This document shows, in pieces, positions 62,776 to 64,000 of a stretch of 64,000 bases of DNA. Where the stretch lies: positions 87,941 to 151,940 of the forward strand of contig NZ_BJZU01000005.1 in the NCBI RefSeq assembly GCF_007992195.1, in the 5' to 3' direction. The stretch is from Methylobacterium oxalidis. GTDB lineage: Bacteria > Pseudomonadota > Alphaproteobacteria > Rhizobiales > Beijerinckiaceae. The position numbers were made by a program, and so were the translations under genes. Under the pieces are notes generated by a model. That model was not told the DNA's origin, made no database searches, and saw only the letters and a list, made by a program, of their open reading frames with translations. Position 1 is the stretch's first letter, and each line of letters opens with the position of its first letter.

Positions 62776-63909
62776 TTGGCGATCACCCGCGACGACGTGC
62801 TCAAGGCTCTGGCCGGCGTGACGGTCGATGCCGGCGGCACCACCCTCACCGGCTCCGGCCGCCTCTCGCAGGTGGTGGTCGACCCGAGCCAGCGGGTCAT
62901 GTTCTCGATCCTCGTCGACCCGAGCGAGGCGGAGCGCTTCGAGCCGGTGCGGCGCAGGGCGGAGGGCGCGGTGCTGGCGCTACCCGGCGTCACCGGCGTC
63001 TTCGCGAGCCTCACCTCGGAGCGCGGCCCCAACATGCCCGCGCCGGCCGCCGCCCCGGCGCGCCCGGCCACGCCGCCGCCGCGGGGTGCCGCTCCCGGCC
63101 CCGGCCCGGCGCTGCCCGGCGTGCGCCACATCGTGGCGGTGGCCTCCGGCAAGGGCGGCGTCGGCAAGTCCACCACCGCCTGCAACCTCGCGCTCGCCCT
63201 GCAGGCGCAGGGCCTCAGGGTCGGTCTTCTCGACGCCGACATCTACGGCCCGTCGGTGCCCAAGCTCTTCGGCCTGTCCGGCAAGCCGCGGGTGATCGAG
63301 GGGCGGACGCTGGAGCCGATGCAGGGCTACGGGCTCAAGGTGATGTCGATCGGCTTCCTGATCGAGCCCGAATCCGCGATGATCTGGCGCGGCCCGATGG
63401 TGCAGTCGGCAATCACGCAGATGCTGCGCGAGGTCGCCTGGGGCGAGCTCGACGTGCTCCTCGTGGACATGCCGCCCGGCACCGGCGACGCGCAGCTCAC
63501 CATGGCGCAGGCGACGCCGCTGTCGGGCGCCGTCATCGTCTCGACGCCGCAGGACCTCGCGCTCATCGACGCCCGGCGCGGCGTCACCATGTTCAAGAAG
63601 GTCGCGGTGCCGATCCTCGGCGTGGTCGAGAACATGGCGACCTTCGTCTGCCCCCATTGCGGGCAGGCCTCGCACATCTTCGGCCACGGCGGCGCCCGCG
63701 AGGAGGCCGAGCGCCTCGGCGTGCCCTTCCTCGGCGAGGTGCCCCTCAACATGACGATCCGCGAGACCTCCGATTCCGGGCGCCCCGTCGTGGCGACGGA
63801 CCCGGACGGGCCGCAGGCGAGCGTCTACCGGGAGATCGCGGGCCGGCTCTGGGGCAACCTCTCGGGCGCGGGGGCCGGCCGGGCCGCGCCGAAGATCGTC
63901 ATCGAGTGA
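62776..63909 (+). CDS. apbC: Mrp/ApbC family Fe-S cluster carrier ATPase
   Basis: A 377-residue P-loop ATPase that binds and transfers iron-sulfur clusters. It has an N-terminal MIP18/DUF59 domain (about 1-85), a Pro/Ala-rich linker (about 86-115), the deviant Walker A SGKGGVGKST at 124-133, VDMPPGTGD and the cluster-binding CPHC pair (Cys292 and Cys295). The start is the TTG at 62776, chosen because AGGAG lies 7 bases upstream and the protein then begins with the DUF59 domain. Five bases after the stop begins the 23-bp tandem repeat. Confidence 0.94.
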   Translation: MAITRDDVLKALAGVTVDAGGTTLTGSGRLSQVVVDPSQRVMFSILVDPSEAERFEPVRRRAEGAVLALPGVTGVFASLTSERGPNMPAPAAAPARPATPPPRGAAPGPGPALPGVRHIVAVASGKGGVGKSTTACNLALALQAQGLRVGLLDADIYGPSVPKLFGLSGKPRVIEGRTLEPMQGYGLKVMSIGFLIEPESAMIWRGPMVQSAITQMLREVAWGELDVLLVDMPPGTGDAQLTMAQATPLSGAVIVSTPQDLALIDARRGVTMFKKVAVPILGVVENMATFVCPHCGQASHIFGHGGAREEAERLGVPFLGEVPLNMTIRETSDSGRPVVATDPDGPQASVYREIAGRLWGNLSGAGAGRAAPKIVIE

Positions 63910-63913
63910 GCCG

Positions 63914-64000
63914 ATGACGACGCTCGGAGGCAGCCGGTGACGACGCTCGGAGGCAGCCGGTGACGACGCTCGGAGGCAGCCGGTGACGACGCTCGGCGTC
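63914..64000 (+). repeat. Four tandem 23-bp copies of a translation-start module
   Basis: Copies begin at 63914, 63937, 63960 and 63983 with exact 23-bp period; the last diverges after 12-14 bases as it runs into new sequence. Each of the first three units reads start codon (ATG once, then GTG), eight codons giving MTTLGGSR, then TGA, and carries GGAGG six bases before the next GTG. The TGA of each unit overlaps the next GTG (GTGA). The fourth GTG opens a frame that stays open to the window end. Confidence 0.9.
63983..64000 (+). CDS. Start of a gene leaving the window (unknown product)
   Basis: The GTG at 63983, in the last repeat unit and preceded by GGAGG at 6 bases, opens a frame reading MTTLGV to the end of the window. 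Earlier copies of the same start terminate after eight codons, so this is the only start that can feed a longer protein. Only six codons are visible, so no function can be proposed. Confidence 0.5.

Follow-up and report, generated by a model that had tools for sequence, protein, structure and literature searches.

The junction between mrp and mobA in Methylobacterium oxalidis raises the question of how translation passes from one gene to the next across a tandem repeat that carries start and stop codons of its own. The window, by which we mean the whole stretch of 64,000 nucleotides analysed, ends just behind this repeat. An earlier note on this DNA had described four 23-bp modules, each with a ribosome-binding site and a start codon, and had proposed that they form a chain of termination and re-initiation whose copy number might vary and so tune or phase-vary the downstream gene.

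Structure of the Array and Its Flanking Genes

Tandem Repeats Finder and a comparison of the copies placed the array at 63904–63995 of the forward strand, the strand of all array features given below, in four 23-bp copies. Copy 1 (63904–63926, GAGTGAGCCGATGACGACGCTCG) contains the stop codon of mrp, TGA at 63907–63909, and an ATG at 63914 that is preceded by GAGTGAG in place of GGAGG. Copies 2 to 4 (63927–63995) are identical, each reading GAGGCAGCCGGTGACGACGCTCG. The start codons lie 23 bp apart (ATG 63914; GTG 63937, 63960, and 63983), with GGAGG six nucleotides before GTG 63937 (63926–63930) and again at 63949–63953 and 63972–63976. Mini-ORF 1 (MTTLGGSR*, 63914–63940) begins 4 nt past the mrp stop, and mini-ORFs 2 (63937–63963) and 3 (63960–63986), both (GTG)TTLGGSR*, each open in a GTGA overlap, so that the stop-to-start spacing is +4 nt at the mrp stop and then −4 nt at three successive overlaps. 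The exact period, the start positions, and the GTGA overlaps were all as the earlier note had them. Its four copies also stood, with the extent corrected to 63904–63995 and copy 1 holding the mrp stop codon; GGAGG and six bases, ascribed to every copy, precede only the last three of the four starts, and the eight-codon frame M/V-TTLGGSR, ascribed to every unit, occurs three times, the fourth frame continuing as mobA.

The Tandem Repeats Finder score of the array (169) was the highest of 96 rows in the window, the runner-up reaching 78, and 100 order-3 Markov shuffles of the window gave a maximum of 103 and a mean of 65. In 20 stretches of contigs C3 and C4, which make up 400 kb of this genome, 23 rows scored at least 80, and their best between-copy match was 89%, as against 98% in the 23-bp array. 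Computed pairing with ACCUCCUUU, taken as the 16S tail, was −9.5 kcal/mol at the GGAGG starts versus −4.1 kcal/mol at the first start, these energies and those below disregarding spacing; a search for the 16S gene in the genomes of M. oxalidis (G000), G013, and M. segetis (G046) found none.

Upstream of the array, mrp/apbC (62776–63909) encodes an iron–sulfur cluster carrier P-loop NTPase, its TTG start being chosen by eye. A query begun one codon upstream of that start matched Pfam PF10609 (E = 1.1e-103) and NCBIfam ApbC NF008669 (E = 3.4e-100; 335.5 bits, under the cut-off of 348). The downstream gene, which the earlier note had suggested reading beyond 64000, proved to be mobA, whose first codons occupy 63983–64000 and which runs on along contig C6 (78–698) to a length of 206 aa, scoring 178 bits against NCBIfam TIGR02665 (molyb_mobA; cut-off 151.85). 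GTG 63983 is the earliest in-frame mobA start after a stop codon, and the order across the join of C5 and C6 is mrp/apbC, the array, mobA, and then a cyclophilin-type isomerase gene on the opposite strand.

Other classes of repeat were considered and rejected. A coding repeat does not fit, as 23 is not a multiple of three and the frame of every unit ends in TGA. An RNA element was discarded as well: no Rfam family reached its gathering score in C6:1–6000 or in L061, L298, and L324, and C6:1–140 folded as expected by chance (z = 0.03), so that no special structure is invoked for what follows. A mobile element or dispersed repeat was rejected on its single genomic location; a search of the genome itself with a 201-base array query matched only the end of C5 and the start of C6 (40 of 152 candidates scored), and among 111 genomes of the genus the repeat pattern was found only at the mrp–mobA locus of M. 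oxalidis. The exact 23-bp unit was not matched by any entry of the named genome collection, from which the source genome and its nearest kin may be missing.

The Contig Break

Contig C5 terminates at position 64000, and C6:1–95 is identical to window positions 63906–64000. When the ends of C1–C41 (C13 masked), out of 342 contigs, were compared, the end of C5 and the start of C6 were the sole pair among 80 usable ends to overlap by an exact match of at least 15 bases. As this sole pair sits at the array, the assembly broke there, and the break hints at ambiguity in the reads. It is this coincidence that speaks for an assembly artefact, that is, a repeat created or mis-sized at a contig end, but we regard such an origin as very improbable. 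C5 contains all four copies and five further, unique bases, and C6 starts two bases into copy 1, thus missing no more than two bases of the array and retaining the bases that distinguish copy 1 from the others; from the contents of both contigs, the four-copy form is present in the assembly. Moreover, in M. segetis a single contig of 115,563 bases includes mrp, two copies, and mobA, and a mobA closely behind mrp is the rule in the genus.

Elsewhere in the M. oxalidis assembly, several contigs (L041–L060, L141–L160) end in the inverted-repeat sequences CCTCTCCCG/CGGGAGAGG, and two contig ends are long runs of C or G. These ends point to a dispersed repeat family as the probable cause of the fragmentation.

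The Junction in the Genus and the Origin of the Array

mobA was found in 108 of the 111 genomes of the genus, and 104 of these loci were scored (G019, G049, and G050 failed on the core motif, and M. oxalidis lacks mrp on C6). If the in-frame start furthest upstream is used, although the true start may lie further down in some genomes, mobA either overlaps the mrp stop or begins no more than 12 nt from it in 98 of the 104 members, with an overlap in 39 of those 98. The median of the best pairing energies (best start per genome) was −3.3 kcal/mol; the −9.5 kcal/mol of M. segetis was the strongest of the 104, and M. oxalidis, scored separately, also reached −9.5 kcal/mol. Judged by position and pairing energy, the normal arrangement in this genus puts mobA where it can be coupled to mrp, and in most members the gene lacks its own strong ribosome-binding site.

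The two closest relatives by mobA search, G013 and M. segetis (L061), each with 82% identity, indicate where the repeat came from. In G013 there is one copy, namely the mrp stop, GCCG, and a GTG; M. segetis has two, GAGTGAGCCGGTGACGACGCGCG followed by GAGGCAGCCGGTGACGACGCTCG; and M. oxalidis has four. The repeat unit is the junction itself, comprising the final codon of mrp with its stop, four bases, and the opening codons of mobA, and its local origin is evident from the one-copy and two-copy relatives. We therefore consider it well supported, and nearly certain, that the array arose by tandem duplication of the mrp-stop/mobA-start junction. Compared with the junction, the second copy differs by a change of TG to GC, which converts GGAGT to GGAGG and shifts the computed pairing with the presumed 16S tail from −6.1 to −9.5 kcal/mol. 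GGAGG thus precedes mobA in the two- and four-copy forms but not in the one-copy form, where the pairing is −4.1 kcal/mol. Since GAGGCAG is common to M. segetis and M. oxalidis, the change most simply predates the expansion to four copies, which, as copies 2 to 4 are identical, looks recent. The mobA frame of G013 (L007, from 1454) shifts after codon 18 as assembled, by a possible sequencing error or in a possibly broken gene.

Three other members of the genus carry 15-bp repeats at the mobA junction, with 3.1 copies in G107, 3.7 in G093, and 1.9 in G037 (L236, L021, and L238), which lengthen the N-terminus of MobA in frame just past the mrp stop. The mrp–mobA junction looks like a recurrent site of tandem duplication in the genus. 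Among the repeats that Tandem Repeats Finder reported in the interval from the mrp stop to the first mobA codons in 105 junctions, a survey of small numbers that misses the two-copy form of M. segetis, none had a period of 3n+1.

Duplication Period and Reading Frame

The junction of G013 was duplicated in silico, using all periods between 8 and 45, both included, for which the start codon is retained. Periods of 3n gave an in-frame extension in 235 of 235 simulated duplications, and periods of 3n+2 placed the stop on the next start as GTGA in 232 of 232. With periods of 3n+1, the stop preceded the next start by at most 7 bases in 166 of 224 cases, and the frame read through past the start in the other 58. 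As 23 is 3n+2, every eight-codon frame necessarily ends in GTGA on the next start; because this overlap is automatic for any 3n+2 duplication of an RTGA start, it is not separate evidence of design. These results suggest a rule for gene-start duplications that survive, in which a 3n period lengthens the protein, a 3n+2 period yields a coupled relay, and a 3n+1 period gives neither of these.

Similar Arrays in Other Genomes

A scan for GGAGG-N6-RTGA-N4to30-GGAGG-N6-RTGA covered five sets with 1,280 different genomes (G000–G1279), the larger groups being sampled. It matched in 25 of the 1,280: 4 of 111 in the genus, 8 of 397 in the order, 5 of 385 in the class, 10 of 398 in the phylum, and 3 of 103 in the family of G346. 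The reversed pattern, used as a control, matched in 0, 2, 4, 1, and 0 genomes of the same sets, so isolated pairs of modules do arise by chance. As the pattern requires two GGAGG sites, two-copy forms such as that of M. segetis are missed. A frame test on 32 of the 41 matched places, spanning all 25 genomes, showed a mini-ORF ending on the next start in seven (G000, G047, G351, G346, G590, G519, and G502); in the remaining 18, the period was a multiple of three (12 genomes) or 3n+1 (6 genomes).

Besides M. oxalidis, one multi-copy tandem array at a gene junction emerged, between murC and murB in G346 and its sister G502, which belong to the same order as M. oxalidis but to a different family. 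Both gene identities were confirmed by Pfam; the two MurB proteins are 95% identical, and among the 120 matches listed for MurB one was named, from a Hyphomicrobium sp., at 78% identity. The units are 26 bp long (again 3n+2), four in G346 and five in G502; the murC stop overlaps the first ATG, the last start of the array is that of murB, and nine-codon frames ending on the next RTGA occur three times in G346 (MRKCAGGAL, VRNCAGGAQ, and MRTCTGGVS) and four times in G502. Across the nine units, the last of each array extending into murB itself, 16 of 26 columns vary, with the TGA of RTGA kept in all nine and GGAGG in seven. By eye, no repeat was seen at murC–murB in the six other members of the G346 genus. 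Four of the five scored among these single-copy relatives (L328 of the six was left out) already pair at −9.5 kcal/mol in front of murB, and the gain of a ribosome-binding site is on this evidence special to mobA.

In G519, a further case, of two copies with a 41-bp period, stands before a lipid A acyltransferase gene; such two-copy forms, of which M. segetis is the other, are too few for a test of selection. Two look-alikes have no assigned gene next on their strand, which means that the layout alone is no proof of function. In G047 (L266, 1485–1621), 6.9 copies of a 20-bp GGAGG-N6-GTGA unit are flanked by a His-rich frame and by an RNase PH gene, each on the opposite strand; downstream on the same strand comes a 114-aa frame without a Pfam match, with hrcA about 560 nt on. 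In G590, where the reading covered the L336 region, a degenerate 44-bp array of more than 10 copies (1065–1736), containing a masked stretch, lies between an upstream YHS-domain gene and an opposite-strand guanylate kinase gene. In G351 (L297, 1512–1553), a 13-codon frame with a GTGA overlap stands immediately before a K+ transporter gene (PF02705), with no clear duplication.

Discussion

Considering the above results, we propose that the array likely hands terminating ribosomes from mrp to mobA at any copy number and so preserves the coupling of the two genes, a reading drawn from sequence comparison to which we give a probability of roughly 0.6. Having finished mrp, ribosomes would restart 4 nt further on, at ATG 63914, read eight codons, terminate, and begin again at the GTG that overlaps the stop; three such rounds would bring them to the start of mobA, and the GGAGG sites could recruit additional ribosomes on the way. 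Each stop in the series either overlaps the next start or lies a few nucleotides before it, which is the spacing of translationally coupled genes. Were the array an inert spacer, mrp and mobA would stand 27 nt apart in M. segetis and 73 nt apart in M. oxalidis. For six gene pairs, coupling was reported to be almost lost at a distance of about 20 nt (PMC10666635, as far as its accessible text goes), and since 73 nt without the chain exceeds this range, a relay is likely. In E. coli, according to the part of the study available, removal of the inner ribosome-binding site cut re-initiation substantially in four of five pairs (PMC6728339). The earlier note's chain of termination and re-initiation is to this extent partly supported, as it fits the anatomy and as the murC–murB array, which is independent, has the same layout. 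The product of mobA attaches GMP to the molybdenum cofactor, and the accessible part of a study of Methylorubrum extorquens states that deletion of mobA failed and terms the gene likely essential (PMC13197769); assuming orthology with the M. oxalidis locus, this fits selection keeping mobA expressed. The array would then be a self-buffered duplication, which selection likely tolerates through its coupling-preserving 3n+2 period, and the new strong ribosome-binding site may be a gain.

Points against the relay include the look-alike arrays, the GGAGG before mobA, which may permit initiation without it, the expected loss of ribosomes at each hop, and the finding of only two independent multi-copy cases in 1,280 sampled genomes. 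A rival explanation is a neutral slippage array, a tolerated accident in which mobA is initiated afresh at 63983 and the mini-ORFs are idle. Such an accident would leave the start, frame, and strong ribosome-binding site of mobA intact, and GGAGG with six bases before 63983 should suffice for ordinary initiation; the identity of copies 2 to 4 and their apparently recent expansion, the unremarkable RNA folding (z = 0.03), and the look-alike arrays without an assigned next gene are all compatible with it. We nevertheless find this explanation rather unlikely, as the murC–murB array shares the layout and its diverged units keep the TGA overlap nine times out of nine and GGAGG seven times out of nine, and as the three 15-bp repeats at the mobA start likewise keep the frame.

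The proposal of a copy-number device has to be divided. Phase variation in the usual on/off sense is not supported: each unit brings its own stop and start, mobA opens at its own GTG in the two- and four-copy forms, and its frame is therefore the same for any number of whole units, which excludes a frame switch. Copy number does vary between species, with 1, 2, and 4 copies at mrp–mobA and 4 and 5 at murC–murB, and is probably unstable. That within-species slippage sets mobA output stepwise, as a translational rheostat, is a much weaker proposition and in our judgement improbable, even though this between-species variation and the contig break exactly at the array are in its favour. A ribosome covers about 28 nt, so starts 23 nt apart could not be occupied together, and output need not rise with copies; as each hop should lose ribosomes, more copies could even lower it. 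In the senX3–regX3 junction, the units known as MIRUs (mycobacterial interspersed repetitive units) are reported to differ between two strains (PMC4213456, accessible part), which would suit a rheostat, whereas the likely essential role described for mobA in M. extorquens (PMC13197769, orthology again assumed) would make wide variation risky. Graded tuning of mobA by copy number is only a possibility.

Among known systems, MIRUs and the engineered bicistronic design come closest to a ribosome relay between mrp and mobA. As described in the accessible text of the two reports, MIRUs are short tandem units at gene junctions with an inner ORF coupled at −4 nt (PMC12548453), and the senX3–regX3 units of 77 and 53 bp (PMC4213456) are both 3n+2, like the 23-bp array, which has the same junction position and −4 nt overlap. 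MIRUs, however, appear to be mobile and to insert at start codons (PMC12548453), whereas the 23-bp array is the host's own junction, found at one genomic place rather than dispersed over many, with eight-codon frames. Being local and built from the host junction, it would work like a MIRU and is not filed as a member. The bicistronic design is similar in that a short leader holds the next ribosome-binding site and has its stop at the following start, in a frame shifted by one base (PMC5995908, as far as available), an arrangement also present in each mini-ORF here, but it is engineered and has a single leader, compared with three natural leaders in series. ATGA/GTGA gene pairs share the 4-nt overlap and the dependence on short distance, but in the accessible accounts they involve two genes (PMC6728339, PMC10666635) and not serial repeats of a junction. 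mgtQ, between mgtC and mgtB, is likewise a short ORF in an operon gap that promotes translation of the next gene; it is described as acting through stem-loops and ribosome-destabilising residues, and the available part of that report does not mention repetition (PMC8092293). The TAACTGA direct repeats of Beggiatoaceae are tandem units before start codons with a proposed translational action, but they are heptamers of little ribosome-binding character that stop all frames, and a relay is not described in the accessible text (PMC4679880). No treatment of tandem start-codon relays was found in searches of the open-access literature, judged by title and abstract opening.

A broader and distinctly tentative idea, which we think doubtful, is that tandem 3n+2 duplication of a junction is a general, self-buffering route by which bacteria build expandable minicistron relays from their own sequence, with relay length setting how many ribosomes reach the next gene and MIRUs being a mobile, domesticated form. 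If so, added copies would keep the downstream frame and coupling, and an array would be free to grow and shrink. The two unrelated loci offer natural serial bicistronic leaders made from host sequence, and natural allele series (1, 2, and 4 copies at mrp–mobA; 1, 4, and 5 at murC–murB) in which the survival of ribosomes through repeated termination and re-initiation can be asked.
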